Positions 2,060 to 25,593 are shown, counted from the stretch's first letter. The stretch is 43,501 nt of DNA from Candidatus Bathyarchaeota archaeon (GCA_021161255.1 JAGHAZ010000029.1:1-43501), one strand, 5' to 3'. The notes: generated by a model not told the origin, from the letters alone. A program made the numbers and translations.

Positions 2060-3087
2060 GTAAGGTAACGTTAGCTCACGGAGCCGGGGGCAGGGAGATG
2101 GCTGAACTCTTGGAAGCCCTGATATTCCATAGGGTAGACGAGCCTCTCAAGAAGGTCGAAGGCGGGTTAGGGATAGACCATCCAGACGACGGTGCTTTAA
2201 TACCTATCGGCGAGGGCAGGTTCTTAGTCGTGTCGACGGATTCGTACACGGTCTCGCCGTTGTTCTTCCCGGGGGGCGATATCGGGAAGCTGGCCGTCTG
2301 CGGTTCGATAAACGACGTCCTTATGATGGGCGGTATACCGGTCGCGATGCTTGATACGATAGTCGTGGAGGAGGGGCTCCCGATGCAGACCCTTAACAGC
2401 ATAGTGGATTCTATGGTCGAAACCCTCAGGAACGAGGGGGTTGCGTTGATAGGTGGAGACTTCAAGGTCATGCCTAAAGGCAGTGTGGACAGGATCGTCG
2501 TGACCACGACTTGTATAGGGGTCTCAGAGAACCCGATAATGGATGTGAACCTTGAGCCTGGGGATAGGATAATCGTGTCCGGCTGTCTAGGCGAACATGG
2601 GGCGACCATAATGGCTCTGCAACACGGTTTAGAGGCCGAGGCCTCGCTCAAGAGCGACGTAAAGCCTCTGACCCGGCTATTCAAACCCCTGATAGAGAAG
2701 TATTCTAAGGTGGTTAAAGCCGCCGGAGACCCTACGAGAGGTGGGTTATCGATGCTTCTCAACGGCTGGGCTAAGTCCACCGGTTTCCTGATAATCGTAG
2801 ACGAGGCTAAGATACCTATCAGTAAACCCGTTAGGAAATATTCTGAGATGCTCGGGGTCGACCCTCTGCATCTGGCGTCTGAGGGTGTGGCGGTTATAGC
2901 CACCGAAGCCGGGTATGCGGATGAGGTCTTAGACTTCGTCAGAGGATTGGGGTTCGAGGACGCGATGATCATAGGCGAGGTCGTCAAGGGTGAAAGGTTT
3001 AAGGGTTTGGTAGTCGCTAGGAGCGAGGTGGGGGGGCTGAGGGTTCTAGAGCCTCCCACCGGAGAGCTTGTCCCAAGGATCTGCTAA
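2056..3087 (+). CDS. hypE: carbamoyl dehydratase HypE
   Basis: HypE takes a carbamoyl group from HypF onto its C-terminal cysteine, dehydrates it with ATP to thiocyanate, and supplies the cyanide ligands of the hydrogenase iron. The protein is a PurM/ThiL-fold enzyme of 343 residues: HGAGGREM at the N-terminus, STDSYTVSPLFFPGGDIGKLAVCGSINDV as the ATP and metal region, and AGDPTRGGLSMLLN in the second domain. It ends exactly in PRIC, the diagnostic reactive cysteine, so it appears functional. It overlaps hypC by 4 bases and is followed by hypF after 1 base. Confidence 0.96.
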   Translation: MSKVTLAHGAGGREMAELLEALIFHRVDEPLKKVEGGLGIDHPDDGALIPIGEGRFLVVSTDSYTVSPLFFPGGDIGKLAVCGSINDVLMMGGIPVAMLDTIVVEEGLPMQTLNSIVDSMVETLRNEGVALIGGDFKVMPKGSVDRIVVTTTCIGVSENPIMDVNLEPGDRIIVSGCLGEHGATIMALQHGLEAEASLKSDVKPLTRLFKPLIEKYSKVVKAAGDPTRGGLSMLLNGWAKSTGFLIIVDEAKIPISKPVRKYSEMLGVDPLHLASEGVAVIATEAGYADEVLDFVRGLGFEDAMIIGEVVKGERFKGLVVARSEVGGLRVLEPPTGELVPRIC

Positions 3088-3088
3088 C

Positions 3089-5398
3089 ATGAAGGCTGTT
3101 AAGATAACAGTCACGGGGGTCGTTCAGGGGGTAGGTTTCAGACCGTTCGTCTATAGGCTAGCTAGGGATCTCGGGCTGAAGGGCTACGTTAAAAACCTGG
3201 GTGGAAGCGAGGTGGAGATAGTCGTCGAAGGCCCTTCCAGCAAGGTCGAGGAGTTCGTCGCAAGGATTCGAAGCGATAAACCGCCTCCCGCCGAGATCCA
3301 GAGCTTAACCGTGAAGCCTACAGGCGGTGGGTTTAGGGAGTTTAAGATAGAGCCTAGCGGTAGGTCCCGTAGAGCATACTCTATGATACCGCCTGACATA
3401 GGGATATGCAGAGACTGTCTAGCGGAGGTTTTAGACCCCAAGGACAGGAGGTACATGTACCCCCTTAACAGCTGCGCCTGGTGTGGGCCTAGGTTCTCCA
3501 TGATGGAAGATATACCCTACGACAGGGGGAACACAAGCATGAGAGACTTCCCGATGTGCACCGACTGTCTTAGGGAGTATAGAGACCCCGACGACATCAG
3601 GAGGTTTCACGCCCAGGGAAACTGCTGCCCGGTCTGCGGGCCGAGGGTGTGGCTTGAGGATAGAAACGGTGTCGTGATTAACCGGGAGAACCCGGTCTTG
3701 GAGGCTTCGAGGCTCGTCGAGGAGGGATATATCCTAGCCGTCAAGGGGCTGGGTGGGTTCCACATAGCCTGTCTAGCCACGGACGACGACATCGTCTTGA
3801 GGCTTAGAACCAGAAAGAGGAGGCCTGAGAAGCCTTTTGCCCTGATGGCTTTAAACCTCGAAACCGCTAGGAGGATCGCGTATATCTCGGAGGAGGATGC
3901 ACGGCTCCTCGAGTCGCCTATCAGACCGATCCTTCTACTCCCCGAGAGGGAGGATAGCCCCGTTTCGAGACATGTGGCTCCGGGCCTATCCATGCAGGGT
4001 ATAATGCTACCCTACACGGCGCTCCACTACATGCTCCTCTCCAACGTTGGAGACGGCTTCCTGATAATGACGAGCGGCAACGAGAGGGGTGAACCGATGT
4101 GCACAGGCAACCGGGAGGCCAGGGTTAAGCTCAGGGGGTTTGTCGACTACTTCCTCATGCACGACAGGAGGATCGTTAACCGGGTAGACGACAGCGTCGT
4201 CAGGAGAACCGGTGGATTCTACACGGTGATAAGAAGGGGGAGGGGATACGCTCCGAGGTGGGTTAGGCTACCGTTTAGACTTCCAAGCCCTGTGGTCGCC
4301 TTAGGGGCGCACTACCAGAACACCGGATGCCTAGCCTTCGAGGACATAGCTATTCCAACCCAGTTCGTGGGGGATATGGATAACCTATCCTCTCTAGCGG
4401 AGCTTGAGAGAGCGGTCAGCTTTCTCCTAAAGACCTATAGAATCGACTTATCCGACGTCGTCGTGGCGGTCGATAAGCATCCCAGATACCTAAGCCGACT
4501 GCTGGCCGAGAAGTGGATTGAAACCTATGGCTGTAGGCTTGTGGAGGTTCAACACCACCACGCCCACGCTGCGTCGGTCATGGTGGAGCTGGGTGTCAAA
4601 GACTCGGAGATGGTGGCCGTCACCCTAGACGGTGCAGGATACGGCGACGACGGAACGGTTTGGGGTGGAGAGGTTCTCATAACCGGATACGGAGCCTACA
4701 CAAGGTTCGGTCATCTAGAGCAGGTGCCGATGCCGGGTGGAGATAGGGCTACGGAGTACCCCGTCAGGATGCTCATGTCCATACTATCCAGGTTCATGCC
4801 GGTGGAGGAGGTTAGAGAGTTCATAGTCGGTAGGGGCCTTCACAAGGGGCTACCCTACGGAGCTGAGGAGGCCGACGCCGTGCTCTCCCTCCTCGAGAGA
4901 GGCGATGCACCCCTGACCTCGAGCCTAGGGAGGGTTTTAGACTCCGCCTCAGCGCTTCTAGGGATATGCTTCAAGAGGACCTATGAGGGGGAGCCGGCTA
5001 TCAAGCTAGAGGCAACCTCGAGCAGAGCTAAGCCCATAGACCTGCTCGAGCCCAGGGTTTCCAGGTCGAAGCCCCTCGTCCAAACCCACAGGATCTTCGA
5101 GGAGCTTTTGGAGAAGCTCGATAGGCCCCGTGAGCAGCTTGCCTACAGCGTTCAGAGGGCGTTGGGGTTATCCATCGGAGAGCTCGCGGTCATGGCCTCC
5201 AAGGGGAGGGGCGTCGATAGGGTCCTCGTATCCGGGGGCGCGGCTGTGAACACCGTGATATTCGAAGCCATCAGGGAGAAGGCTGAGGAGGCAGGGCTTA
5301 AGGCATACGTCAACACCGTGGTTCCGGCCGGAGACGGCGGGGTCTCCCTAGGTCAGGCGGCGGTAGCCGGTTTCAGGGTTTTGGAAAGCCTCCTATAG
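3089..5398 (+). CDS. hypF: carbamoyltransferase HypF
   Basis: HypF converts carbamoyl phosphate to a carbamoyl adenylate and passes it to HypE. The domains run in the normal order: acylphosphatase (residues 1-90, GVVQGVGFRPFVYRLA), two CxxC-type zinc fingers (about 105-190, including CRDCLAEVLDP and NCCPVCGP), a YrdC-like domain (about 200-380) and a Kae1-like carbamoyltransferase domain with the metal-binding HHHAHAASVM near residue 488. I chose ATG 3089, one base after the hypE stop and at the first residue of the acylphosphatase fold; the frame could extend to TTG 3068 inside hypE. The 769-residue length is normal. Its last bases overlap the convergent LLM gene. Confidence 0.95.
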   Translation: MKAVKITVTGVVQGVGFRPFVYRLARDLGLKGYVKNLGGSEVEIVVEGPSSKVEEFVARIRSDKPPPAEIQSLTVKPTGGGFREFKIEPSGRSRRAYSMIPPDIGICRDCLAEVLDPKDRRYMYPLNSCAWCGPRFSMMEDIPYDRGNTSMRDFPMCTDCLREYRDPDDIRRFHAQGNCCPVCGPRVWLEDRNGVVINRENPVLEASRLVEEGYILAVKGLGGFHIACLATDDDIVLRLRTRKRRPEKPFALMALNLETARRIAYISEEDARLLESPIRPILLLPEREDSPVSRHVAPGLSMQGIMLPYTALHYMLLSNVGDGFLIMTSGNERGEPMCTGNREARVKLRGFVDYFLMHDRRIVNRVDDSVVRRTGGFYTVIRRGRGYAPRWVRLPFRLPSPVVALGAHYQNTGCLAFEDIAIPTQFVGDMDNLSSLAELERAVSFLLKTYRIDLSDVVVAVDKHPRYLSRLLAEKWIETYGCRLVEVQHHHAHAASVMVELGVKDSEMVAVTLDGAGYGDDGTVWGGEVLITGYGAYTRFGHLEQVPMPGGDRATEYPVRMLMSILSRFMPVEEVREFIVGRGLHKGLPYGAEEADAVLSLLERGDAPLTSSLGRVLDSASALLGICFKRTYEGEPAIKLEATSSRAKPIDLLEPRVSRSKPLVQTHRIFEELLEKLDRPREQLAYSVQRALGLSIGELAVMASKGRGVDRVLVSGGAAVNTVIFEAIREKAEEAGLKAYVNTVVPAGDGGVSLGQAAVAGFRVLESLL

Positions 5399-8194: not shown

Positions 8195-9358
8195 TCACCC
8201 TGTAAGCCATTTAAGCTCTTCGAAGACCTCGTCTAGGTCTGTCGAGAACAGTCCTATCGCGTAGTCACCTACACCCCCTACCCACAGGAGCCTATCCTGA
8301 TATACTAGAAGCCCGTCGCCGAATATCACTAGAATCCTGTCGCCGTATGTTTCGACCAGACCCTTCGAGGCTAGTAGATAATTGCTTAGAGCCAGGAGCC
8401 TACCGGTCTCGTCGACCAAGGCTAGGCCGTTTCTGTAAGATAGGTCGTCCTTCAAGACGGCATGCCAGCCCACAAGATACTCGTTACTCGAGACCTTAAC
8501 AGTGTTAGTGGACCAACCGATTTTAAGCTCCCAATCCTCAAACCCTAGAACCGGCTGAAGAGTCTCGCCTATTATGACTCCGTCATGGAGAGAAGCCTTG
8601 CACCGCCAGCATATGTTTAAACCGTCGACCTCAGGTCTAGTTAGAATCGTGCATTCGTCTACATCCACATCCACGAACGCACTATCCTTGTTCGACCTCG
8701 GTAGGAGGAATTCGTCTCCGAAGCGTATGCGAAAGTAGAGCCTCCGCTTAACCTCGTACGTCTCGTCTAGTATAGCCAGCCCTAACACGTCTCTACGCTT
8801 AAACCGTCCATACATGTAGACTTGGTTCAGAAGCTCTTCGAACGGCTCTACCGACGCGTCTCGTAAACTCGTCCGACCCAGTAACCTAGACAGCTGCGTC
8901 ACATAGTCCGATGATGAAAGTCTCCCTAGGTAGTAGCCCTTCCCCGTGTAAAGCACGTATACTTCGCCGTCTCTTAGAAGAGTCCTAGGGTCTTCGACCC
9001 CTAGGAACTCCCAGATGCTCTGGGGCCAAAGCACTATCCGTGTCTCTATAGGCTTCGGCACATCACCGTTTAAGACGGACTCGATGTCGAGTTCGAAGAC
9101 TCCTATGCTCGAAACATACTTATAGTAGTCGAATATGAGCCTGGGGAAAACCTTGAGCCTTTTGCCTACCAAAAGCGCTCCTGGATTGAACGCTACGAGG
9201 GGCTTAGACCGGATATAGTTTGAAACAATCAGGTCGCTGGGGGCTATGTAGCATAATCTCTCAAACACGTCTTTAAGCTCGGGTTTCCTCACGCCTCTAT
9301 GGTTATGTAGAAAGCGTCTCTGCATCTCAACCAGGTGTTCGTAGGGTTTCATGCCCAT
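8195..9358 (-). CDS. GH130-like glycoside phosphorylase/hydrolase (five-bladed beta-propeller)
   Basis: A 387-residue protein that I place in or near glycoside hydrolase family 130, whose members phosphorolyse or hydrolyse beta-mannosides. Supporting segments are FLGVEDPRTLLRDGEVYVLYTGKG (the family's xEDPR motif and repeated strand), NEYLVGWHAVLKDDLSYRNGLALVD (compare the family's YHG..YR.GAALLD), and VIFGDGLLVYQDRLLWVGGVGDYAIGL near the C-terminus. Identity is distant, so the substrate is unknown. It is divergent from the sugar-importer ATPase gene, with about 126 bases between them, which suits a role in glycoside use. The ATG at 9350-9352, two codons in, is an alternative start. Confidence 0.68.
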   Translation of the reverse strand: MGMKPYEHLVEMQRRFLHNHRGVRKPELKDVFERLCYIAPSDLIVSNYIRSKPLVAFNPGALLVGKRLKVFPRLIFDYYKYVSSIGVFELDIESVLNGDVPKPIETRIVLWPQSIWEFLGVEDPRTLLRDGEVYVLYTGKGYYLGRLSSSDYVTQLSRLLGRTSLRDASVEPFEELLNQVYMYGRFKRRDVLGLAILDETYEVKRRLYFRIRFGDEFLLPRSNKDSAFVDVDVDECTILTRPEVDGLNICWRCKASLHDGVIIGETLQPVLGFEDWELKIGWSTNTVKVSSNEYLVGWHAVLKDDLSYRNGLALVDETGRLLALSNYLLASKGLVETYGDRILVIFGDGLLVYQDRLLWVGGVGDYAIGLFSTDLDEVFEELKWLTG

Positions 9359-9484: not shown

Positions 9485-10561
9485 ATGGTTAAAGTCAAGC
9501 TGGAGAACCTTACTAAGAGGTTCGGTAAAGTCGTAGCGGTCGATAACCTAAACCTCGACATCAAGGACGGGGAGTTCGTCGCCCTCCTAGGCCCCTCTGG
9601 ATGCGGGAAGAGCACGACCTTGCTCATGATCGCGGGTATCTACAAGCCGACGTCGGGGTACATATACTTCGACGACGAGGTGGTGAACGATCTACCGCCT
9701 AGAGAGAGGAACGTAGGCATGGTCTTCCAGAGCTACGCATTATACCCGCACATGAGCGTCTTCGACAACATAGCCTTCCCGCTGAAGATAAAGAAAGCCC
9801 CTAGGGCTGAGATCGAGAAGAAGGTGCGTGAGGTCGCTAGGCTCCTACGGATAGAAGAGCTTCTAGACAGACGGCCGGCTCAGCTAAGCGGTGGTCAGAT
9901 GCAAAGGGTCGCGTTAGCCAGGGCTCTGGCTAAGGAGCCTAACCTGTTTCTGATGGACGAGCCTCTGAGCAACCTAGACGCTAAGCTCAGGATCTTGATG
10001 AGGACCGAGCTTAAGAGGCTTCAGAAGGAGCTGGGTATAACGACGATCTACGTGACCCACGACCAGGTCGAGGCTATGACGATGGCTGATAGGATAGCTC
10101 TACTCAACGAGGGGAGGCTTCAGCAGGTCGGTAGCCCCGACGACCTATACCATAAACCCAGCAACATGTTCGTCGCCGGTTTCATAGGAAGCCCACCTAT
10201 GAACTTCATCGAAGGCTCCTTGGAGGAGCGGGAGGGGAAGATCGTCTTCACGTCTGAAGAGCTGACGGTGGAGCTTCCGGCCGATATAGCCGATGTCTTG
10301 AAGGACCGGGTTTCCGAGGATGTCGTGTTGGGCGTTAGACCTGAAGACATAATCGTGGGCTGTGAAAGAGGGTTTAAGGCTTTGGTCTACGTGGTCGAGC
10401 CTCTTGGGAAGGATACGATAGTCAACTTGAAGGTCGGTGGCCTTATAATCAAGGCCGTCGTGTCAGGGGTTAAATATAACATCAACGACGTGGTCAACGT
10501 ATCGTTTAACTTAGATAAAGTTCACATATTCAGCCGTAAAAACGGTGAGGCCCTAGTCTAA
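9485..10561 (+). CDS. carbohydrate ABC importer ATPase, MalK/UgpC/InoK type
   Basis: This is the ATP-hydrolysing subunit of a CUT1-type sugar importer, 358 residues. Walker A is GPSGCGKST (about residue 37), the signature is LSGGQMQRVALARAL, Walker B is LFLMDEPLSNLDAKLR, and the switch His lies in TTIYVTHDQVEAMT. Residues from about 240 form the C-terminal regulatory OB domain of MalK proteins (VVLGVRPEDI). It is encoded opposite and tail to tail with the permease and binding-protein genes, 6 bases apart, and is presumably their ATPase. In Thermotoga maritima the comparable ATPase is InoK. Confidence 0.93.
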   Translation: MVKVKLENLTKRFGKVVAVDNLNLDIKDGEFVALLGPSGCGKSTTLLMIAGIYKPTSGYIYFDDEVVNDLPPRERNVGMVFQSYALYPHMSVFDNIAFPLKIKKAPRAEIEKKVREVARLLRIEELLDRRPAQLSGGQMQRVALARALAKEPNLFLMDEPLSNLDAKLRILMRTELKRLQKELGITTIYVTHDQVEAMTMADRIALLNEGRLQQVGSPDDLYHKPSNMFVAGFIGSPPMNFIEGSLEEREGKIVFTSEELTVELPADIADVLKDRVSEDVVLGVRPEDIIVGCERGFKALVYVVEPLGKDTIVNLKVGGLIIKAVVSGVKYNINDVVNVSFNLDKVHIFSRKNGEALV

Positions 10562-10567
10562 ATGGGT

Positions 10568-11467
10568 TTATCCCTTCACTGCTCCTACAAGCTGGAGTTT
10601 AAGCAACGTCTTCTGGGTTAACGCGTAGAACACGAGTATAGGTATCATGTAGAACAACGCCACCGCGGCGAGTAAACCCCAGTCGACGAATACGAACTCC
10701 CCTATGACGCTGTATAGGAAAACGGAGATCGGGTAGAACTCCCTCCTCTTGATGTACGTGTAAGCCAGCAGGAACTCGCCCCAGCCACCCATGAAAGAGA
10801 ATATGGCCACGGCGGATATACCCGGAGTTATGATCGGGAGTAGAATCTTTCTCCACGTCTGAAACCTAGAGCACCCGTCGACCATAGCGGCCCACTCAAG
10901 CTCCCAAGGTATCCCGTCGAAGAAGCCCTTGAGGATCCACGTATCCATCGGAGCCCCTAACCCGGCTTTGACCAAGGCGACACCTATCAGGGTGAGAATT
11001 CCCTTACCGTAGAGACCCAGCCGGTTGAGTATGTAGAACAGCGCGATCAAGAGTATGACGCCTGGGAAAGCGTGAAGCGCCACTATAAGCTTCATAGTAG
11101 CCACCCTGCCAGGGAACTTCATCCTCGAAAGCGCATACCCCGCTAGGGCGGCTACAGGGATCTCGAACGCCACCGTTCCGACCGCGAGTATCAGGGAGTT
11201 ACCTACTATAGGCCATATATTCGGATACTCAGACAGCCCGAACCGTATCGGATGCCATAGAAACCTGAAGTTTTCAAGCGTGAAGCCTCTGGGGATTAGC
11301 CCTGAGGTTGGGCCTTCGCTGAAGCTTTGGACGACCAACCACGCGATCATGCTCAGTATCGGGATGAGCGGTATCAGAAGCACAGAATACACTATGACGT
11401 ATTTCAGCAGGTTCATGAGCTTCGCCTTTCTTATAGCCGCCCTGTATCTGGATTTCTTAGACGGCAT
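10568..11467 (-). CDS. carbohydrate ABC importer permease, MalG/UgpE/InoG type
   Basis: A 299-residue inner permease with six predicted membrane helices. The EAA loop that docks on the ATPase is visible as EWAAMVDGCSRFQTWRKILLPIITPGISA. The N-terminal basic stretch (MPSKKSRYRAAIRKAKL) precedes the first helix. It is the last gene of a minus-strand run (binding protein, permease, permease) with 6-base gaps between genes. Confidence 0.93.
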   Translation of the reverse strand: MPSKKSRYRAAIRKAKLMNLLKYVIVYSVLLIPLIPILSMIAWLVVQSFSEGPTSGLIPRGFTLENFRFLWHPIRFGLSEYPNIWPIVGNSLILAVGTVAFEIPVAALAGYALSRMKFPGRVATMKLIVALHAFPGVILLIALFYILNRLGLYGKGILTLIGVALVKAGLGAPMDTWILKGFFDGIPWELEWAAMVDGCSRFQTWRKILLPIITPGISAVAIFSFMGGWGEFLLAYTYIKRREFYPISVFLYSVIGEFVFVDWGLLAAVALFYMIPILVFYALTQKTLLKLQLVGAVKG

Positions 11468-11473
11468 ACTCCT

Positions 11474-12469
11474 CTACACCTCCACCTTCGAAGGCTGCAT
11501 CATCCTCTCAAACCCGAAGACCTTGAAGAATATGAAGATGAATATCAGACCTATGATCACGAGGAATATCGAGAGAGCTGCCCCATACCCGTACTCAGAC
11601 GCGTAGAATGCTTTCGAATATGCGTATAACGCCCAGACCTCAACCTCCGCAGCCCTAGCGACCCCAGCTCCTCCGGCCCAGAGCGCGAGTATATGCTCGT
11701 AGGAGGATATCAGGCTGAGGCATTGCCAAGACGTTACGAAGAATATGGGCCACTTAAGCAGCGGTAGGATTATGTGCCGGCACACCTGCAAGTCCGTAGC
11801 CCCGTCTGCTATAGCCGCGTGGAATATGTCTCTTGGTATGGACGTTATGGCGGCGGAGTATATTATCATGCCGAAAGACGCCCCCACGTAGCCGTTCACG
11901 GCTATCATGAGTATCTGAGAGTAGGGAGGTGTTAGAAGCCAATCCCTCGGGGTGGGTAACCCGAGCAACCCTAGAAAAGTGTTCAAGAGACCTATGTTAG
12001 GGTCTATGAACCACCTCCATAGGAGCGCGTAGATCACCGCGGGTGTTATCCTAGGTATGAGCCACGCGAGTCTTATAGCCATGGAGATAGGCTCCTTCTT
12101 GATGAAGTACGTGGTGAAGATGGCTAACACGAGGCTGAAGAACGCGTTTATCGCTAGGACGGAGGATACATACAGCACGGTTACGTAGATCGTGTCTACG
12201 ACCCGTATATCACGGGTGAATATCCTTACGAAGTTATCAAGCCCTATGAACTGCATATTCGTTATGGTCCACTGGGTCTTCGTGAAAGCCATATACGTGG
12301 TTATACCCACAGGGGCAAACCACATGACGCTTATCAATATGAAGAAGGGAGACATGAAGAAGAAAGGAAGTACCTTACCCGACACACCCCTAGGTATGTA
12401 CCGTTTAACCCTCTTGAGGAAACCTGTTAAACTTAAAAAAATGGGGGATTCTCTTACGTACCTCTTCAT
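11474..12469 (-). CDS. carbohydrate ABC importer permease, MalF/UgpA/InoF type
   Basis: A 331-residue permease with about six membrane helices. The EAA-like coupling loop reads HAAIADGATDLQVCRHIILPLLKWPIFF. It sits 6 bases after the binding-protein gene and 6 bases before the second permease, so the three are surely co-transcribed. The two permeases differ in length and sequence and would form a heterodimeric channel. Confidence 0.93.
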   Translation of the reverse strand: MKRYVRESPIFLSLTGFLKRVKRYIPRGVSGKVLPFFFMSPFFILISVMWFAPVGITTYMAFTKTQWTITNMQFIGLDNFVRIFTRDIRVVDTIYVTVLYVSSVLAINAFFSLVLAIFTTYFIKKEPISMAIRLAWLIPRITPAVIYALLWRWFIDPNIGLLNTFLGLLGLPTPRDWLLTPPYSQILMIAVNGYVGASFGMIIYSAAITSIPRDIFHAAIADGATDLQVCRHIILPLLKWPIFFVTSWQCLSLISSYEHILALWAGGAGVARAAEVEVWALYAYSKAFYASEYGYGAALSIFLVIIGLIFIFIFFKVFGFERMMQPSKVEV

Positions 12470-12475
12470 CCGGCT

Positions 12476-13990
12476 TCACTCTCGGACTATAAGGTCTTCT
12501 CCAAGCTCAGCCTGCGCCGCGTTCACCAGGCTCTCGACGGCCTCATCGGGGGTTAAAGTGCCCTTCTCAACCTTAACCAGGTGCTCTAGGAGCATGTCTT
12601 TCAGGATACCCCACTTCGGGTGGAGTATCGGCTTGCTCATACCGTATTTGGCCACGAAGGTGCTCACCTTGTATAGGAAGCCACCCTTCTCCACGAACGG
12701 CGGGTAGTTCAGGGTCGAATAGCGAACCGGTAGGTGGCTGCTGGTCAAGGCGTGGTCCGTGTCATACGGCGGTATCGTTGCGAAGTAGCATATGAGGAAC
12801 GCCAGCTCAGGATACTTAGACTGGCTGCAGATGTAGTATTTCCACGGTCCCGTCGTCACACCGGCCTTTCCACCCTTCTCCAGCGCCGGGTACAAGCCGA
12901 AGCCTACGTTTTCCCACAAGTAAGATTCTGGTACAGCTCCCAGCGTCTCATGGTACTCAACCTTCTGCCATTCACCCCAGTGCCAGCTACCGCCGAGCCA
13001 GAACAACACTCTACCGTTGACGAAGCCCATGTGGATCTCCCTCCAGCTCGTCCCTATCATCGTATCCGGAAGCACTTTATCGACCTGCGCCAGCGTGTAG
13101 AACAGCGTAAACATATCCTTTAAGGCCGACTTGTCCAAGACAAGCTTACCCGTCTCCACGTCGTAGAAATCTCCGCCAGCCAGGTAGTACGGTATCTCCA
13201 GGCTTGTACCCCAGTTGGGTCTATGGAAGAAGCCCCATTGGACAAGCCCTTTCTCCATCGCCTCCTCAGCGACCTCCGCTAAGTCGTACCAGGTGATCTC
13301 GCCCTTCGCTATCTTGTCAGGTAGGGCCTCTATCTCCTCTTCACTCCATCCAAGCTGTCTCAACACATCCTTTCTGAAGTAGAATACCTGGCTTGCGACG
13401 TCTTGGGGCACACCCCACATCTTACCCTTGTATTTGACAGCATCCCAGAGGTACTCGGGAATATCTGCTAAAAGGTCCTTATACTTCCCATAGTACTCGT
13501 CGACCGGTATGATCCAACCAGCCTCCGCGGCTTCCACCATATCTATGCCGGATATGATATCAGGAGCCTCGCCAGCTTCAAAAGCACTGGCGAACTTACT
13601 CTTCCAGGCCCCCCAGTCAGACACGTGCTCATAGTAGGAATCCATCTCTATCGTGACGTTAAGACCCACCCCTTTCAGAAGCGTCTCGAGGAGCTTAGCC
13701 GCCCTCTTGAGGTTCTCAGCCCTATAATAGTCTACGGGCGACCCTGCGCTCCACGCGCTCATCTTTATGATTCCATCCGTGGGTAGGGTGCCTACGAGCG
13801 CTTTAAGCGCCTCATATTCAGGTTTGATAGTATCAAGCTCAGATTTAAGAGCGTCACGTTCAGACACCACGGCGTTATACTCCTCCTGAGGAACTCCCTT
13901 TGGGGTTACGGCCCAGCCGATCGCAGCGCCGATGATCAAGCCGATTATAAGCCCGACTATCAGATATGTACTAGAAGGTTTCTGAGACAT
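12476..13990 (-). CDS. membrane-anchored sugar-binding protein of the ABC importer
   Basis: This is the extracytoplasmic solute receptor, 504 residues. An uncleaved-looking membrane helix (residues 8-28, YLIVGLIIGLIIGAAIGWAV) is followed by a short coiled coil (about 35-65) that would hold the binding domain away from the membrane; there is no lipobox Cys. The remainder matches CUT1 binding proteins: FEAGEAPDIISGIDMVEAAEAGWIIPVDEYY, MWGVPQDVASQVFYFRKDVLRQLG and the late GLYPALEKGGKAGVTTGPWKYYI. Many aromatic residues suggest a polyol or sugar ligand. Myo-inositol phosphate or glycerophosphoinositol is inferred from neighbours, not from the sequence. Confidence 0.9.
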   Translation of the reverse strand: MSQKPSSTYLIVGLIIGLIIGAAIGWAVTPKGVPQEEYNAVVSERDALKSELDTIKPEYEALKALVGTLPTDGIIKMSAWSAGSPVDYYRAENLKRAAKLLETLLKGVGLNVTIEMDSYYEHVSDWGAWKSKFASAFEAGEAPDIISGIDMVEAAEAGWIIPVDEYYGKYKDLLADIPEYLWDAVKYKGKMWGVPQDVASQVFYFRKDVLRQLGWSEEEIEALPDKIAKGEITWYDLAEVAEEAMEKGLVQWGFFHRPNWGTSLEIPYYLAGGDFYDVETGKLVLDKSALKDMFTLFYTLAQVDKVLPDTMIGTSWREIHMGFVNGRVLFWLGGSWHWGEWQKVEYHETLGAVPESYLWENVGFGLYPALEKGGKAGVTTGPWKYYICSQSKYPELAFLICYFATIPPYDTDHALTSSHLPVRYSTLNYPPFVEKGGFLYKVSTFVAKYGMSKPILHPKWGILKDMLLEHLVKVEKGTLTPDEAVESLVNAAQAELGEDLIVRE

Positions 13991-13992
13991 TT

Positions 13993-14043
13993 CCCCTCGT
14001 TTATAAAGATTAATAAACAGTGCGTTTTAAGTTTTTATTTAAA
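13993..14043 (-). promoter_or_regulatory. promoter and Shine-Dalgarno site for the binding-protein operon
   Basis: On the minus strand TTTAAATA (14043-14036) is a good TATA box, placing the transcript start near 14014. GAGGGGA at 13999-13993 is a Shine-Dalgarno site just before ATG 13990. The surrounding 13991-14100 is very AT-rich. The binding protein and permeases can therefore be transcribed apart from the enzymes upstream. Confidence 0.6.
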
Positions 14044-14105
14044 TCTATAAAATAATTTTCACCTTTAATGCCTGTTTAAACCAGAAACAGTTTTAGAAAG
14101 CTCGT

Positions 14106-14867
14106 TCAGAAGTCTTTTTCACGAAGGGTTTTGACCACTAACCCGGGAGTATCCGTAGTTACGAAGTCGACCCCGGCCTCGACGCACCTCAGAACCTCTT
14201 CAACCGTGTTAACGACCCAGGTGTTCACAAGAAGACCCCTCTTATGACAATACCTGACAGTCTTTGGAGATAGTTCTTCAATACGTATCGAAGCTATATC
14301 CACGAGGTTCTTCGTAAACTCGTCCACGGACTCTTCGAAGCCGCTTCTCACGTTAAGGTCAGCCTGGATAGTTATTCTCGGCTCTGACATCTTAATCCTC
14401 TTACACGTCTCTAGAGGCGCGATTATCATCGAGCCGTAAACCAAGCCATAGGACCTTAGCAGCTTTAAGACCCGATCCTCGATACCGGTCTCCTTGAGGT
14501 CCACGGCCACCGAGACTCTACCCCTCGCTAACGCTAAAACCTCCTCGAACGTAGGTATTTTGACGCCCCTGAACCCTGGGCTGAACCAGGCTCCGGCGTC
14601 CATAGATTTAAGCTCCTCAAGAGTGAAACGCGAGACCAGACCCTTCGAATCTGTCGTACGGTCGACCCGGTCGTCGTGCATCACCACGAGAAAACCGTCT
14701 CTCGAGCTACGTACGTCGAACTCTATGAAGTCGACCCCGACATCTATGGCTTTTAGAAAAGAGGGCATCGTATTCTCAGGCGCCTGAGAAGGCGCGCCTC
14801 TATGACCTATGACCGCCATCTTGGACGATTTAACCTTCATAAGGGATGATTTAAATCTATGGGTCAT
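14106..14867 (-). CDS. glycerophosphodiester phosphodiesterase (GDPD/UgpQ type)
   Basis: A TIM-barrel hydrolase of 253 residues that splits glycerophosphodiesters into glycerol 3-phosphate and an alcohol. The active-site signature is complete: IGHRGAPSQAPENT (His, Arg, Glu), FIEFDVRSSRDGFLVVMHDDRVDRTT (Glu, Asp and the second His), AVDLKETG and the late VNTWVVNTVEEV. The ATG overlaps the stop of the IolO-like gene in an ATGA (14864-14867), supporting this start. Placed between an importer and inositol enzymes, it most simply acts on glycerophosphoinositol; that substrate is inference. No signal peptide is seen, so it would act inside the cell after uptake. Confidence 0.92.
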   Translation of the reverse strand: MTHRFKSSLMKVKSSKMAVIGHRGAPSQAPENTMPSFLKAIDVGVDFIEFDVRSSRDGFLVVMHDDRVDRTTDSKGLVSRFTLEELKSMDAGAWFSPGFRGVKIPTFEEVLALARGRVSVAVDLKETGIEDRVLKLLRSYGLVYGSMIIAPLETCKRIKMSEPRITIQADLNVRSGFEESVDEFTKNLVDIASIRIEELSPKTVRYCHKRGLLVNTWVVNTVEEVLRCVEAGVDFVTTDTPGLVVKTLREKDF

Positions 14868-15673
14868 AGCGAAGTAATCAACGGTTTAAGCGTGTCCGCG
14901 GTCTGCTTTAGGGCTCCTTTTAAACTCGGCTCAGGCATGGCTTCTAGGCTTAGATACCCCCTATAGCCGACCCTTAGAAGGCGGAAAACCGTCTTCTCCC
15001 AGTCTATACTACCCATGCCTGGTGGAAGCCTGTTGTTCTCGGCTACGTGAACATGCCCTATGCTCGGACCCGCGTGGAGTATCGCGTCGTAGAGGCTCCG
15101 CTCCTCGATGCCCATGTGGAAGGTGTCGAAGAGAAGCTTGACCCAGCCTCCCGTCTCCCCGATGATCGATAAGGTCTCAGAGACCTTGTTGGCGAGGTCC
15201 GTCTCGTACCTGTTCAAGGGTTCGAGCAACAAGTTCACACCGTGACGTTCGCATGGATCCCTAAGCCGCTTCAGAGATTCCACTAGAAGCCTACGAGCCT
15301 CCTCGACGCTTCTCCCTCCGCGTCTCCCCCTTATGAGGCCTACGACCACACCCGACTTATGGGCCGAGGCGAGCTCTACGTACTTTACCATAAACTCCAC
15401 GGCTTTATCTCTAACATCCCGGTCTGGATGGGTTAAGCTTAACCCATACTCTAAGTACGCTAGACCTGTCGATATGGCCGATATTCTCAGACCGTAAGCC
15501 TCAGTGGTATTCAAAAGTCTGTCGAAATCTAGTTCGAAGGGGTTTGGAATATTGTACTCCACCCCATGATAGCCGAGCTCGGCCATGAACCCGAGTACTT
15601 CTTCAAGTTCTCCCCTGAGTACGTACTCGAACCTAGCCCTACCCGGCAGGGCGTAGACGGCTGAGAGCTTCAC
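14864..15673 (-). CDS. iolO: IolO-like 5-keto-L-gluconate epimerase (sugar epimerase TIM barrel)
   Basis: A 269-residue xylose-isomerase-like TIM barrel. Compared from memory with T. maritima TM0416 (IolO, which converts 5-keto-L-gluconate to D-tagaturonate), it shares distinctive strings: a YGLSLTHP stretch, VGLIRGRRGGRS, LLLEPLNRYETDL and LFDTFHMGIEE. The metal ligands are seen as Glu in EPLN, Asp in DTFH, His in HVHVAE and Glu in SLEAMP. It overlaps the phosphodiesterase gene by 4 bases and follows the IolN-like gene by 31 bases. The family is certain; the specific reaction rests on these motifs plus the IolM and IolN neighbours. Confidence 0.85.
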   Translation of the reverse strand: MKLSAVYALPGRARFEYVLRGELEEVLGFMAELGYHGVEYNIPNPFELDFDRLLNTTEAYGLRISAISTGLAYLEYGLSLTHPDRDVRDKAVEFMVKYVELASAHKSGVVVGLIRGRRGGRSVEEARRLLVESLKRLRDPCERHGVNLLLEPLNRYETDLANKVSETLSIIGETGGWVKLLFDTFHMGIEERSLYDAILHAGPSIGHVHVAENNRLPPGMGSIDWEKTVFRLLRVGYRGYLSLEAMPEPSLKGALKQTADTLKPLITSL

Positions 15674-15704
15674 CCAGGTTTCCCCTCTAGACCCGCGTCC
15701 ACCT

Positions 15705-16643
15705 TCAAGGTTTATCGTATTTAAGGTCTTCAGGGTCTATCCAGGTCTTCGGAACCCTACCGGGTGGATACTCGGATTTCAGCCACTCGAGAAACTCTAT
15801 GAACCTCTCTATGGACTTCTCTATGAGAACCCTGCCCTTCTCTATGTCGGCCTTAGACGCGTCCCCGACGACTCCTAGGCTGTAGTGGTATATCTCAGGA
15901 GGGTTGCTTACGTCATACCAGTTGAACGGCTTATCCGGGAACACGTTCCCAGCCGCGTTTATCCACCTAGCGTCTATGAAACGGGTCATCTTCTCGGTTT
16001 TAGACCTCTTCATAGCCTCGACGTTCACGAGCTCCGGAGCCACATACCATATGCAGCTCGTCTCGACCTCGTCGGCATGTATGAAAGGTGTCTCAAGCCT
16101 GACACCGGGCGCTATCTCCTCACCGGTCCCGGCTTTACGCAGGAGGTCTTGAACCCAGCTCCACCAGCTCGTAACCATTATCAGAGCGTGGACCCCCTCC
16201 TCGACTATGGCCTTATCCTTGACTATCGGTAGGACGTACTCCTGCCCGTGGCTGTTCCAGAGGATTATCTTCTTGAAACCCGCGTGGCTGAGCCACTTGA
16301 CCACGCTCACCAAATATCCTATGAAGGCATCCTTAGACACGGGTATCGTGCCGGGCATCCCATAGTGATGGCTCGGATGGCTACCGTAGAATATTGGAGG
16401 GGCAACCGTAACCCCGGTCTCATAAGCCGCCCTCTCGGCGATGCTGACGCCTATAAACGTGTCCTCACCTATGGGTGAAGGAGGCCCATGATTCTCCATC
16501 GAGCCGACCGGAACTATCACTATGTCGTTCTCCTCAACCCTCTCCTTAAGCTCCTCGACCGTCATCTGGTCGAGGTATATCTTCTTCCCATACCTGTTCA
16601 GGACGGGTTTACACCACCTCTCGCTCAGGGGCTTAAACTCCAA
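15705..16643 (-). CDS. iolN: creatininase-family hydrolase, probable IolN (diketo-inositol hydrolase)
   Basis: A 312-residue creatininase-fold metal amidohydrolase. Metal ligands are visible in PVGSMENHGPPSPIGEDTFIG (Glu, His, Asp), SHPSHHYGMPGT, ILWNSHGQEYVLP and FIHADEVETS. In Thermotoga a creatininase-family protein (TM0413, IolN) opens the ring of the diketo-inositol made by IolM to give 5-keto-L-gluconate. Here the gene lies between IolM-like and IolO-like genes in the same order of reactions. Creatininase itself, or a deformylase of this family, is less likely in this context. It starts 58 bases after the IolM-like gene ends. Confidence 0.82.
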   Translation of the reverse strand: MEFKPLSERWCKPVLNRYGKKIYLDQMTVEELKERVEENDIVIVPVGSMENHGPPSPIGEDTFIGVSIAERAAYETGVTVAPPIFYGSHPSHHYGMPGTIPVSKDAFIGYLVSVVKWLSHAGFKKIILWNSHGQEYVLPIVKDKAIVEEGVHALIMVTSWWSWVQDLLRKAGTGEEIAPGVRLETPFIHADEVETSCIWYVAPELVNVEAMKRSKTEKMTRFIDARWINAAGNVFPDKPFNWYDVSNPPEIYHYSLGVVGDASKADIEKGRVLIEKSIERFIEFLEWLKSEYPPGRVPKTWIDPEDLKYDKP

Positions 16644-16701
16644 CTCTCACCATCCCCCAAGTAGATATATGGAGACTCCTATAGATAACGGTAACCGTAG
16701 G

Positions 16702-17886
16702 CTACAGTTTAAACTGAACCTTAGCGTGGCTTCTACCCTTGATCAGCAGCTCAAACGCCTCCTCGTAGCGGTCGAGCGGAAACCTAGCCGTCACCATCTT
16801 ACTCGTATCGAGCTTACCCGAGGCCATTAGCCTTATCACGTTGTAGAACACGAAGTGCCCGCTGTGGCCCTGGCTACCGTATATCTGAGCCCTATGCGTC
16901 TGAAACCTCTCGACGAATATCGGAGCCGTCCGGTCAGCCCTACCGATCCAAGCGATCTTACCTCCTATAGCGAGGCTACGCTCCATCTCCGGAAGCGTCT
17001 TAGGCGGTGCGCCGGCGGCCTCGACTTGCAGGTCGGCCCCATATCCGCCAGTCAGCTCCAAGACCTTATCGCTAGGTCTAACACCGCCCTCAGCTAGCCT
17101 CCCGACGTTGAAGACGTAGTCCGCACCCATGTCCTTAGCTATTTTAAGCCTCTCCTCGACGAGGTCGAAGACTATCACCATCGACGCCCCAGCGGCCTTA
17201 GCAAGCGCGGTCGCCGCTAGACCTATGGGTCCGGCCCCGTAGACCACCACGTAGGCGCCGGGCATGAAGCCACCCGCCCTGACAAACATGGCGTTGTAAG
17301 ACACGCTAGTAGGCTCGACCGTGGCGCCGAGCACGTACATCTTGTCTTCGCTCTTAACCGCGTCGAGTATCGGGCTTATGTTCCACGCATACTTCTCAGG
17401 CACTAGGACGTATTCCGAATGCGTGCCGTCTACCGTGAAACCCATCTCCTCGAGCCGTGCGCAGTGGTTAGGTAGCCCGGCTCTACAGTAGAGGCATTCG
17501 CCGCACCACCACATCTCCTCAGCCGTAACCGGGTCTCCTGGTTTAAACATCGAAACCTCCTCTCCAACCTCCTCGACCACGCCGGAGAACTCGTGGCCTA
17601 TCACAACCGGAAGCTTCGTCAACCCGGGGTAAAGCATGTATCCCTCCTCGTCGCTTTCGACCATATGAACATCTGAGCCGCATATCCCTGAAGCCTTAAC
17701 TTTCACAAGGAGCTGCTTACCCCTAGGCTTGGGCTTAGGCTTCTCTACGAGGGATAGCTTTGGGTTACGCCAGACACGGCTACCCATCGGGGTTTTACGG
17801 GTTTCCTCCTCCTCACGGCTAGGCATGTATCCGGGTTTAGGGGACCACTCCGCATCGAGTAGAAGGGCTTTCAAACGTTCCACCAA
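16702..17886 (-). CDS. iolM: zinc-dependent dehydrogenase, probable IolM (scyllo-inosose 3-dehydrogenase)
   Basis: A medium-chain Zn alcohol dehydrogenase of 394 residues. GICGSDVHMVE gives the catalytic Cys, GHEFSGVVEEVGE is the GHE motif, a structural zinc site is formed by CGECLYCRAGLPNHC, and VVYGAGPIGLAATALAKAAGAS is the NAD-binding fold. The long N-terminal extension (KALLLDAEWSPKPGYMPS...GSRVWRNP) and the DEEGY insertion resemble Thermotoga IolM (TM0412) as I remember it and are not general for this superfamily. The annotated start is GTG 17886; TTG 17877, three codons in, gives a start like the Thermotoga protein. Confidence 0.83.
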   Translation of the reverse strand: MVERLKALLLDAEWSPKPGYMPSREEEETRKTPMGSRVWRNPKLSLVEKPKPKPRGKQLLVKVKASGICGSDVHMVESDEEGYMLYPGLTKLPVVIGHEFSGVVEEVGEEVSMFKPGDPVTAEEMWWCGECLYCRAGLPNHCARLEEMGFTVDGTHSEYVLVPEKYAWNISPILDAVKSEDKMYVLGATVEPTSVSYNAMFVRAGGFMPGAYVVVYGAGPIGLAATALAKAAGASMVIVFDLVEERLKIAKDMGADYVFNVGRLAEGGVRPSDKVLELTGGYGADLQVEAAGAPPKTLPEMERSLAIGGKIAWIGRADRTAPIFVERFQTHRAQIYGSQGHSGHFVFYNVIRLMASGKLDTSKMVTARFPLDRYEEAFELLIKGRSHAKVQFKL

Positions 17887-17985: not shown

Positions 17986-18984
17986 TTAGATAAGCTTAAG
18001 CCGCAACCCCACCCCGCTTTCTAAGGCTCTCCTGTAGACGGCCCAGGCTACAGCTATGTCTTGTATAGCCAACCCGGTTGAGTCGAAGACCGTTATCTCA
18101 TATGGTGAGACCCTACCCGGTTTCCTGCCGGCTACGATGTCACCTATCTCAGCGTATATGTCTGAGGTGCTTAGAAGACCTTGGGATATTGGAACGTTAA
18201 CCTCCCCACTATGGACGGCTTGCTCCATATCGTCGACGACTATTTTCGCCCTTCTAAGGATCTTGGGGTCGAGCTCCTGCTTCCCAGGAGCGTCGGCGCC
18301 TATGGCGTTTATGTGGACGCCTTCACCTATCCACTCATCCATTACCACAGGTGACTTAGAGGGTGTGGTTGAGACCACGACATCCGCTTCTCTAACAGCC
18401 TCCTCGACGCTTGAAACAGGCTCAACGTCTAAACCTAAGCGTTTAGACATCTCCCCGGCGTAGCGTAAAACCGCCTCTTCAACTATGTCGAAAACCTTCA
18501 CACGCTCTATGGAGTTTAAAACAAGGTTTAAGGCTTCAAGCTGGGTTCTAGCCTGAACCCCAGCCCCGACCAACCCTACAACTCTAGAATCTCTCCTAGC
18601 CAGGTATTTGGCAGCCACCCCTCCAGCCGCACCGGTTCGCATAGCCGTCAACCAGGAGCCGTCCATGATGCAGAGGGGTGCTCCAGTTTTAGGGTCTAGA
18701 AGCTCTATGATAGCCATAACTGTTCTAAGACCGTAGAGCTTAGGGTTTTTTGGATGCACGTTAACCGTTTTAACCCCCGCCACCCCGGTCTTCTCAAGGT
18801 ATGCAGGCATAACCCTGAAGTCTCCACCGTATCTCGGGAAGTAGACGTAGAGTTTAGGAGGCATCTGAACCCTTCCAAGCCCCTTCTCTCTAAAAGCCTC
18901 TTCCACAGCCTTCAAGGCGTCTTCCATAGATAGAATGCTCTGGACATCTGAGAGGTTTAGGAATAATACCTCCAGCCCACTCAT
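17986..18984 (-). CDS. ornithine cyclodeaminase / mu-crystallin family dehydrogenase
   Basis: A 332-residue NAD(P)-binding protein of the OCD/mu-crystallin family. Seen: FREKGLGRVQMPPKLYVYF, a substrate-binding GVAGVKTVNVHPKN, MDGSWLTAMRTGAAGGVAAKYLARRDSRVVGLVGAGVQARTQLEALN (Rossmann GAGVQA), VVSTTPSKSPVV and INAIGADAPGKQELD. Members include ornithine cyclodeaminase, archaeal alanine dehydrogenase and ketimine reductases; I cannot choose among them. It lies 99 bases upstream of the inositol enzymes on the same strand, with a separate promoter between, so a link to that pathway is only positional. Confidence 0.88.
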   Translation of the reverse strand: MSGLEVLFLNLSDVQSILSMEDALKAVEEAFREKGLGRVQMPPKLYVYFPRYGGDFRVMPAYLEKTGVAGVKTVNVHPKNPKLYGLRTVMAIIELLDPKTGAPLCIMDGSWLTAMRTGAAGGVAAKYLARRDSRVVGLVGAGVQARTQLEALNLVLNSIERVKVFDIVEEAVLRYAGEMSKRLGLDVEPVSSVEEAVREADVVVSTTPSKSPVVMDEWIGEGVHINAIGADAPGKQELDPKILRRAKIVVDDMEQAVHSGEVNVPISQGLLSTSDIYAEIGDIVAGRKPGRVSPYEITVFDSTGLAIQDIAVAWAVYRRALESGVGLRLKLI

Positions 18985-22476: not shown

Positions 22477-23478
22477 TTAACGGGTTATCTCTATGGGTTC
22501 GCCGTTTTTATCGGCTGAGGTGTAGCATGCTTCTACGAGCTTTACGGCTTTGTATGCGTCTTCGACCGTGACCGGAGGAGCTACGCCTTTATCTACCGCC
22601 TCGACGAAGAGGTCGTCTTCCTCCTTGAAGCCCCAGGCTACATGCTCCGGAAGCTTTGTAAACTGATGCACCTCGACGTTCGGGATATCCTCCTTACCCC
22701 ATGCGAACGTGAGCCTGAGGCTCTCCTCTGTTATCGCCGAGCAGTGGTCCCCGTATACCTCGACCCTCTCGAACGGGTAGACCCACGACGCATGCCCGGC
22801 CGAGGTTATCGATAGGATCGTCCTCTCCTCGTTGGAGAACTCCATCATGATCACGAAGCCGTCTGGATGCGGGTATATGTTCCTCCTAGCCAGACACCGG
22901 ACGGTCTTAGGCTCCCCTACGAGCCAACGGGATAGGTCCAGCATGTGTATCACACTGTCGTACAAGAAGCCTCCGGCGACCTCCCTGACCTTGGTCCACG
23001 GCGGCCTCTCCATCTCACCCCGAACCATCTTGATATCGACCACGAACGGTCTGAGACGCTTAGAATCCACAAGCCCCTTAAGCCTCTTGTAGACGGGCCA
23101 GAACCTCCTGTTGAAGCCCACCTGATAGATTAAACCCGCTTTCTCCACGGCGTTAACGAGCTTCTCAGCCTCCTCGAGGCTTATGGCGGGAGGCTTCTCA
23201 GAGAACACGTGCTTACCCGACTTCAAAGCAGCTATGGCTTGGACGACATGGAACTTAGGCGGAGAAGCTATGTAGACGGCTTCGACCTCAGGGTCTTTGA
23301 AAAGCCTCTCAGGAGACTCATAGAACTTGGGGATACCATACGCCTTCGCAAAGGATAACCCCTTAGACCTGACTACGTCCGCCAGCGCCACGACCTCGGC
23401 CTTGGGGTTCTCCTTGAGACAACGGACATGCATGTGAGAAGCCCAACCTGAACCCACGATCCCGATCTTCACGACCAT
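22477..23478 (-). CDS. Gfo/Idh/MocA-family dehydrogenase, candidate IolG
   Basis: An NAD(P)-dependent sugar or polyol dehydrogenase of 333 residues from ATG 23478; the frame extends six codons upstream, but the Rossmann strand KIGIVGSGWASHMH sits right after this Met. HVFSEKPPAISLEEAEKLV carries the conserved EKP lysine, GFNRRFWPVYKRLK resembles inositol dehydrogenases, and GGFLYDSVIHMLDLSRWL has the catalytic Asp and His. IolG activity (myo-inositol to scyllo-inosose) is possible and would complete the inositol route, but the family is broad and the gene is about 4.6 kb from the cluster. Confidence 0.85.
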   Translation of the reverse strand: MVVKIGIVGSGWASHMHVRCLKENPKAEVVALADVVRSKGLSFAKAYGIPKFYESPERLFKDPEVEAVYIASPPKFHVVQAIAALKSGKHVFSEKPPAISLEEAEKLVNAVEKAGLIYQVGFNRRFWPVYKRLKGLVDSKRLRPFVVDIKMVRGEMERPPWTKVREVAGGFLYDSVIHMLDLSRWLVGEPKTVRCLARRNIYPHPDGFVIMMEFSNEERTILSITSAGHASWVYPFERVEVYGDHCSAITEESLRLTFAWGKEDIPNVEVHQFTKLPEHVAWGFKEEDDLFVEAVDKGVAPPVTVEDAYKAVKLVEACYTSADKNGEPIEITR

Positions 23479-23537
23479 ACGGATTCGATAGATCATTATA
23501 GGTTATAGCTCATAAGGTTTCTCTAGAAAACGTGAAA

Positions 23538-24573: not shown

Positions 24574-25593
24574 ATGGGTAGGGTTTTAGGTGCGGGTATA
24601 ATCGGTTGCGGAGGCATAGCTACGGCTCATGCCGAGGCCTATAGGAGGTCCAGCAGGGCCCGGCTCGTAGCGGTCTGCGATATAAGACGCGAGAGGGCTG
24701 TAGCCATGGCCGAGAGGTTCGGCGTCCCACGTTATTATACCAGCTTAGAAGAGTTTCTACGAGACCCTGAGCTGGAGGTTGTTAGCATATGCACGCCTCA
24801 CCATCTTCACGCTTCGCAGACGGTAGCGGCGGCCGAGGCAGGTAAACATGTTCTATGCGAGAAGCCTATGGCCATAAGTCTGAGACAAGCCGATGAGATG
24901 ATAGCGGCCTGTAGAGACAACGGTGTAAAGCTCGGTATAGTGTTTCAGCTCCGGTTCAACCCGCTTTACCGGAGGATCAAGGAGGCTTCAGACGGCGGAG
25001 GATTCGGTATACCTGTCCTAGCCGAGGCGATGGTGAAATGGTATAGGGAGGAGGCTAGATACTATTTCCGAGATGAGGTGGCTAAGTCGTGGAGGGGGAA
25101 GCGGGCCACCGAGGGAGGCGGGGCGTTGATAAACCAGGCGATCCACACGATAGACTTGCTGCAGTGGATCATGGGGCCCGTGGATTTTCTGTATGGAATA
25201 TGCGACACTAGGACGCATCACATCGAGGTCGAGGACTTAGCGGTCTCGATCCTCAGGTTTAGAAGCGGGGCGTTAGGCTACATCGTCGGAAGTGTCTCCA
25301 TAAAGCCTCAGGAAACATGTTTAAACATATACGGCTCTGAGGGGGCGGTATGCGTAAGAGACGGGAGGGTAACGGTCTGGACGGTCAAAGACGTGAAACC
25401 TCCGAGCGGGGAGGAGATGAAGACCAGCCTTACAGGGCATAACGCCGTGGTCGAAGACTTCCTCTCAGCCATAGTTGAGGATAGGGAACCCATGGTAACC
25501 GGTGAGGAGGGGCGTAAATCTCTGGAGATCGTGCTGGCGATCTACAGGGCTAGTATGAAGGAGGGGAAAGTCGTGTTTCCGCTGGCCGAGTAG
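24574..25593 (+). CDS. Gfo/Idh/MocA-family dehydrogenase, candidate IolG
   Basis: A 339-residue NAD(P)-dependent dehydrogenase. The Rossmann motif is AGIIGCGGIATAHAEAY, the EKP motif is HVLCEKPMAISLRQADEM, and the substrate half has GIVFQLRFNPLYRRIK and GGGALINQAIHTIDLLQWIMG with the catalytic Asp and His. The pseudogene at 19039-19290 is a decayed relative from inside the inositol block, so this may be the moved or surviving copy of that function. Myo-inositol 2-dehydrogenase activity is possible but not proven by sequence. An unrecognised gene follows 23 bases later. Confidence 0.87.
   Translation: MGRVLGAGIIGCGGIATAHAEAYRRSSRARLVAVCDIRRERAVAMAERFGVPRYYTSLEEFLRDPELEVVSICTPHHLHASQTVAAAEAGKHVLCEKPMAISLRQADEMIAACRDNGVKLGIVFQLRFNPLYRRIKEASDGGGFGIPVLAEAMVKWYREEARYYFRDEVAKSWRGKRATEGGGALINQAIHTIDLLQWIMGPVDFLYGICDTRTHHIEVEDLAVSILRFRSGALGYIVGSVSIKPQETCLNIYGSEGAVCVRDGRVTVWTVKDVKPPSGEEMKTSLTGHNAVVEDFLSAIVEDREPMVTGEEGRKSLEIVLAIYRASMKEGKVVFPLAE

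Follow-up and report, generated by a model that had tools for sequence, protein, structure and literature searches.

A Thermotoga-type inositol gene set joined to a Ugp-like importer and a glycerophosphodiesterase in Thermoproteota: a probable route of inositol phosphodiester use

Results

We found that the window, a stretch of 43,501 nucleotides that is contig C29 of the MAG of a heat-loving, uncultured member of the Thermoproteota (1.67 Mb in 85 contigs, 95.6% complete), carries genes of the IolM, IolN and IolO type in one run with a glycerophosphodiester phosphodiesterase (GDPD) gene and the genes of a CUT1 importer. The cluster would couple inositol breakdown of the Thermotoga type to uptake of the Ugp kind, and the breakdown module is widespread in archaea. 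We consider it somewhat probable that the operon serves to scavenge an inositol phosphodiester, glycerophosphoinositol being the likeliest, and then to break down the inositol. The genes of the cluster (9485-17886) are all open frames and are given below together with two Gfo/Idh/MocA genes of the same contig.

9485-10561, plus strand: UgpC/MalK-type importer ATPase (ABC_tran PF00005 and OB_MalK PF17912; best NCBIfam match NF008653 UgpC, 426.3 bits, cut-off 432)
10568-11467, minus strand: CUT1 permease of MalG/UgpE type (BPD_transp_1 PF00528; NF008231 MalG, 101 bits, far under cut-off)
11474-12469, minus strand: CUT1 permease of UgpA/MalF type (BPD_transp_1 PF00528; best NCBIfam match UgpA, 64 bits, far under cut-off)
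12476-13990, minus strand: CUT1 solute-binding protein (SBP) with a hydrophobic N-terminal anchor (SBP_bac_1 PF01547, 77.8 bits)
14106-14867, minus strand: GDPD of UgpQ type (PF03009, 147.8 bits; best NCBIfam match NF006989, 117.8 bits, cut-off 264)
14864-15673, minus strand: IolO-like protein, putative 5-keto-L-gluconate 4-epimerase (AP_endonuc_2; NF041099)
15705-16643, minus strand: IolN-like protein, putative 3-dehydro-scyllo-inosose hydrolase (Creatininase; NF041098)
16702-17886, minus strand: IolM, predicted scyllo-inosose 3-dehydrogenase (Zn-ADH; NF041097)
22477-23496, minus strand: IolG candidate, Gfo/Idh/MocA (TIGR04380, 186.7 bits, cut-off 355)
24574-25593: second Gfo/Idh/MocA gene (Pfam match)

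The genes iolM, iolN, iolO, GDPD, SBP and the two permeases follow one another on the minus strand, no gap exceeding 115 bp (58, 31, -4, 115, 6 and 6 bases from iolM to the last permease), the GDPD start overlapping the iolO stop by 4 bp, and the ATPase gene on the plus strand converges on the permease genes. The original prediction, made from the DNA alone, had placed the three iol-like genes in a row beside a CUT1 importer, and the open frames and the top Pfam and NCBIfam matches agree with it. Its likening of the cluster to the Thermotoga inositol genes held for the core, as judged by family models, structures and the IolM tree, but was incomplete in that the GDPD gene had been overlooked, so that the probable import substrate was missed too. 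The neighbourhood also includes a GH130-like gene (8195-9358, minus strand; PF04041, 221.7 bits) that diverges from the importer ATPase gene, a gene of the archaeal alanine dehydrogenase/ornithine cyclodeaminase family (17986-18984, minus strand; above the TIGR02371 cut-off at 471 bits) that lies 99 bp upstream of iolM, and a HypF-like frame (hydrogenase maturation protein; 3068-5398, plus strand) judged by eye.

Analysis of the three enzymes with curated models revealed that IolM passes NF041097 at 532.6 bits (cut-off 450); its nearest solved structure is 3ip1, which we take to be TM0412 (355 bits, 46.6% identity to the 3ip1 sequence). In a phylogenetic tree the window IolM and TM0412 fall into a common 67-row clade with support of 100/100, apart from related Zn dehydrogenases, bearing out the kinship that had been proposed. 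Within this clade the window protein belongs to a mainly archaeal branch and TM0412 to a mainly bacterial one, which also contains a sequence from genome G240 and one from Archaeoglobales. The top NCBIfam match of IolN is NF041098 at 240.9 bits, 4 bits short of the cut-off of 245, and similar archaeal homologues pass this cut-off at 246-260 bits. The nearest solved structures of IolN are creatininases (53 bits), and its motifs YGSHPxHHxG (YGSHPSHH in the window), HGQEYVxP and ETPFIHADExE are shared with archaeal IolN over the cut-off, one of which scores 560 bits. IolO, with NF041099 as top match, is clearly short of the cut-off (239.5 bits against 300; the IolO of locus L044 reaches 270.6); its nearest solved structure is 2zvr, TM_0416 (188 bits, 40% identity), and all four metal-ligand positions that mark the TM_0416 fold family (E, D, H and E) are kept in the window protein and 25 homologues (26 archaeal sequences aligned with TM_0416). 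Together, the best curated models, the structure matches and the IolM tree support assignment of the three enzymes to the IolM, IolN and IolO families.

The sub-threshold scores of IolN and IolO could also mean that IolM-N-O-like enzymes with shifted specificity degrade another cyclitol or a sugar acid (L-glucose/L-gluconate, scyllo- or chiro-inositol), and an IolO homologue, LguG, does act in the L-glucose route of Luteolibacter (PMC12632266). We regard this as improbable, given that IolM scores well above its equivalog cut-off, that IolM together with a ring-opening IolN fits a cyclic diketone best, and that L-gluconate dehydrogenase was not recognised among the cluster genes.

The inositol module is not confined to this contig. 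IolM was over its cut-off in 35 of the 398 genomes of the phylum, in 17 families, and the 36 IolM neighbourhoods that were fetched contained IolN in about 32 cases and IolO in about 25, many of the remaining stretches ending at contig ends; at these frequencies the module is not due to chance. Outside the phylum IolM occurs with IolN or IolO in Njordarchaeum, Archaeoglobales, Chloroflexota, Atribacterota and others. Because the module recurs both in and outside the phylum, the iol pathway is not an oddity of this window alone, and it does not look like a recent transfer from Thermotoga. In G240, a genome of another family, one run (L044) encodes GDPD, SBP, two permeases (permF and permG), UgpC, Gfo, IolM, IolN (302 bits, over cut-off), IolO, a transaldolase-like protein, UxaE (567 bits) and a 2-hydroxyacid dehydrogenase. 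At other iol loci (L056, L058 and L064) CUT2-type importers stand in place of, or alongside, the CUT1 set. A full-text literature search that covered few subscription papers did not find an archaeal inositol breakdown pathway, in keeping with the original prediction that none had been described; its claim of novelty is narrowed by the NCBIfam IolM model, which already has matches in many archaeal genomes; annotation pipelines are therefore likely to name IolM as such.

To characterize the importer, we compared its SBP family (alignment A4; threshold E <= 1e-120) between IolM-positive genomes and a background of 80 IolM-negative genomes. The family was present in 20 of 35 of the former and 1 of 80 of the latter (Fisher p = 5e-12, kinship ignored). 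NCBIfam models did not recognise the SBP as UgpB, a PDB sequence search for its ligand gave generic CUT1 matches only, and its AlphaFold model (pLDDT 51) was too poor to use. In the GDPD the residues HR, EN, E.D and H are invariant in the alignment, and the enzyme is probably cytosolic, since a signal peptide was not obvious by eye. GDPD lies inside the importer gene run in G000/G032, G240, G228 and G342, and in G348 (L189) it is found with two permeases and a distant SBP. The SBP, both permeases, UgpC and GDPD stand in a single run in G228 (L188), in G342 (L192) and, together with all iol genes, in G240 (L044); in Thermofilum-type genomes 5-15 kb separate SBP and GDPD, and in G260, too, GDPD is the next gene after iolO. 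Four lineages have GDPD no more than 10 kb from IolM, where a simple model with 1.5 GDPD genes per genome predicts about 0.64. Genes for GDPD are frequent in the phylum (161/398), and in most IolM-positive genomes they are unlinked to the iol genes.

Could the two gene sets be chance neighbours, the iol genes serving inositol use and the Ugp-like importer with GDPD serving phosphate or glycerol scavenging? E. coli ugpBAECQ, a glycerophosphodiester uptake system, does serve phosphate scavenging, and in G228 and G342 the GDPD/importer genes and the iol genes are on separate contigs. We find this hardly credible, however, as the importer family is nearly limited to IolM-positive genomes and the full set is independently joined in G240.

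A more serious alternative, though one we still hold to be unlikely, keeps the same inositol pathway but has the importer take up inositol itself or a different inositol compound, such as di-myo-inositol phosphate or an inositol glycoside; the GDPD would then act on a different diester or have only a loose functional tie to the pathway. The iol cluster of T. maritima likewise has an importer, InoEFGK (PMC3750489). In G394, G229 and G247 the importer lies by the iol genes and GDPD is missing from the fetched stretch. The GH130-like gene by the ATPase could hint at a mannosylated inositol solute, which is conceivable, beta-mannosides being substrates of GH130 enzymes, but among the loci fetched this gene is confined to the window's genus. 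This alternative is opposed by the SBP-permease-GDPD runs repeated in several families and by the existence of a separate locus type in which inositol genes accompany CUT2 importers.

We thus return to the phosphodiester: since the importer travels with GDPD and the inositol enzymes, an inositol phosphodiester best explains the substrate, and glycerophosphoinositol is the simplest. In favour of glycerophosphoinositol, IolM passes its curated cut-off and the top matches of IolN and IolO are the right families; against it, the latter two miss their cut-offs, several archaeal loci have CUT2 importers, the PDB matches of the SBP are generic, and GDPD is common and mostly unlinked to iol genes. In the proposed route the Ugp-like CUT1 ABC importer (SBP, two permeases and UgpC-type ATPase) would take in glycerophosphoinositol whole, and the cytosolic GDPD would release inositol and glycerol phosphate from it. 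IolG (22477-23496) would oxidise myo-inositol to scyllo-inosose and IolM would oxidise this to 3-dehydro-scyllo-inosose, upon which IolN would open the ring hydrolytically to yield 5-keto-L-gluconate and IolO would epimerise the latter to D-tagaturonate, the same steps as in Thermotoga maritima. Tagaturonate would probably be processed further by two proteins encoded on other contigs, a UxaE-like epimerase on C73 and a member of the transaldolase superfamily on C61. Every substrate and reaction of this scheme, the imported compound especially, is assigned from sequence and gene context; what was observed directly is the family to which each gene belongs, the order of the genes, and their co-occurrence and linkage.

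The genome contains 26 Gfo/Idh/MocA matches, none of which passes the IolG cut-off of TIGR04380 (355). Both Gfo genes of the window had been put forward as sources of IolG, and the suggestion survives for the one at 22.5 kb. Its orthologues (73-74%) lie directly upstream of iolM in G024 (L059) and G048 (L072), which represent a sister genus in the same family, and a homologue is found near iolN-iolM in G062. Its top PDB matches are 3ezy, presumably TM0414, and two inositol dehydrogenases, and a tree places it, with 99% SH-aLRT support, among iol-linked Gfos from G062, a Chloroflexota genome and a Thermotogae genome. Because of the iolM-adjacent orthologue in the sister genus and the clade with iol-linked Gfos, the gene at 22477-23496 is plausible as IolG and is the best candidate. 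The gene at 24574-25593 was rejected: its best solved relative is 3q2k, which is not an inositol dehydrogenase, and it is without an iolM-adjacent orthologue or an iol-linked clade.

Exploring the steps after tagaturonate, we found UxaE (PF16257) in 37 of 398 genomes, 27 of them in common with IolM compared with 3.3 expected. For the later steps, which the original prediction had suggested looking for, the window genome has a distant UxaE homologue (596 aa, contig C73; 106.6 bits, cut-off 27.1). In the lower branch of T. maritima type (UxaE, UxuB, UxuA, KDG) the mannonate dehydratase is UxuA, which was over its cut-off in 0 of 38 genomes, some of them giving partial matches (E about 1e-4) under cut-off; UxuA and altronate dehydratase are both absent from the window genome and were rejected as its lower branch. 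Altronate dehydratase occurs in 4 genomes; in G109 and G163 (L069 and L070), which have neither UxaE nor the transaldolase-like protein, it is at most 1 kb from iolM and looks like another form of the lower branch.

The transaldolase-like family (about 720 aa) gives a weak but repeated match to TAL_FSA (29.8-50.2 bits, cut-off 27), and its gene lies beside iol genes in L044, L056, L058 and L062. It is present in 52 genomes, among them 28 of the 35 IolM-positive and 34 of the 37 UxaE-positive ones, and the window genome encodes a member on C61 (889 bits). Across 24 members neither the lysine aligned with the transaldolase motif nor the STNP motif varies; the AlphaFold model (pLDDT 53) was too poor to use. 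In IolM-negative Ignisphaera-type relatives the gene is found with UxaE-like and TIM-barrel genes, a beta-glucuronidase-like gene (452.6 bits, cut-off 544) being close by; in IolM-positive G332 a partial glucuronate-isomerase match lies near the module. A role in 5-ketohexonate breakdown fits this glucuronidase-like and glucuronate-isomerase context. The beta-glucuronidase-like and partial glucuronate-isomerase-like genes (L176, 5334-7070, and L175, 5094-6377) and their arrangement in Ignisphaera-type genomes suggest an archaeal glucuronide route. The window genome encodes glycerate kinase and a protein of glyoxylate-reductase type (516 bits, over cut-off), the gene for which is also seen beside the module elsewhere. 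As a tentative proposal, which may well prove wrong, the transaldolase-superfamily protein would be an aldolase that cuts a 5-ketohexonate (tagaturonate or fructuronate, from inositol or glucuronides) between C3 and C4 in a retro-aldol reaction to dihydroxyacetone and tartronate semialdehyde, the latter being reduced to D-glycerate by a glyoxylate/hydroxypyruvate-reductase-type enzyme, without UxuA/UxaA, KDG or KDPG. Such an aldolase was not found in our full-text literature search, in which few subscription papers were covered.

Discussion

The inositol pathway of Thermotoga maritima and its intermediates, with the genes TM0411-TM0421, are those of Rodionova et al. 2013 as cited in PMC3750489 and PMC5931981; in PMC3750489 itself T. 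maritima did not grow on inositol. As in T. maritima, homologues of IolM, IolN and IolO occur here together with an ABC sugar importer, an IolG candidate is nearby and a UxaE-type epimerase is encoded in the genome. Unlike in T. maritima, a PPi-dependent kinase (TM0415 type) and the ROK regulator IolR were not recognised among the annotated cluster genes, UxuA is absent, and GDPD and a Ugp-like importer are added. The lineages differ as well, the window IolM belonging to the mainly archaeal branch and the IolG candidate to another iol-linked Gfo clade than 3ezy. An IolO-like 4-epimerase is shared with the L-glucose/L-galactose pathway of Luteolibacter LG18, in which LguG converts 5-keto-L-gluconate to D-tagaturonate; that pathway, however, is without IolM/IolN, obtains 5-keto-L-gluconate from L-gluconate and proceeds through tagaturonate reductase and altronate dehydratase (PMC12632266). 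With the E. coli ugp operon the cluster has in common that an SBP, two CUT1 permeases, a UgpC-type ATPase and a cytosolic GDPD are encoded together, whereas its proteins score under the UgpA, UgpC and GDPD equivalog or subfamily cut-offs and its genes are linked to inositol genes.

Membrane lipids, those of archaea included, can bear inositol as a headgroup, and osmolytes of hot environments have it as their core; its fate in hot ecosystems therefore matters. Close homologues of the gene set in complete Thermofilum-type genomes make this a concrete, testable set. An uncharacterised importer family and a GDPD are now tied to an inositol gene set, and the uncharacterised transaldolase-like family is a probable next step in inositol and hexuronate use. 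If true, the retro-aldol branch together with glycerophosphoinositol uptake would constitute a new archaeal carbon route.
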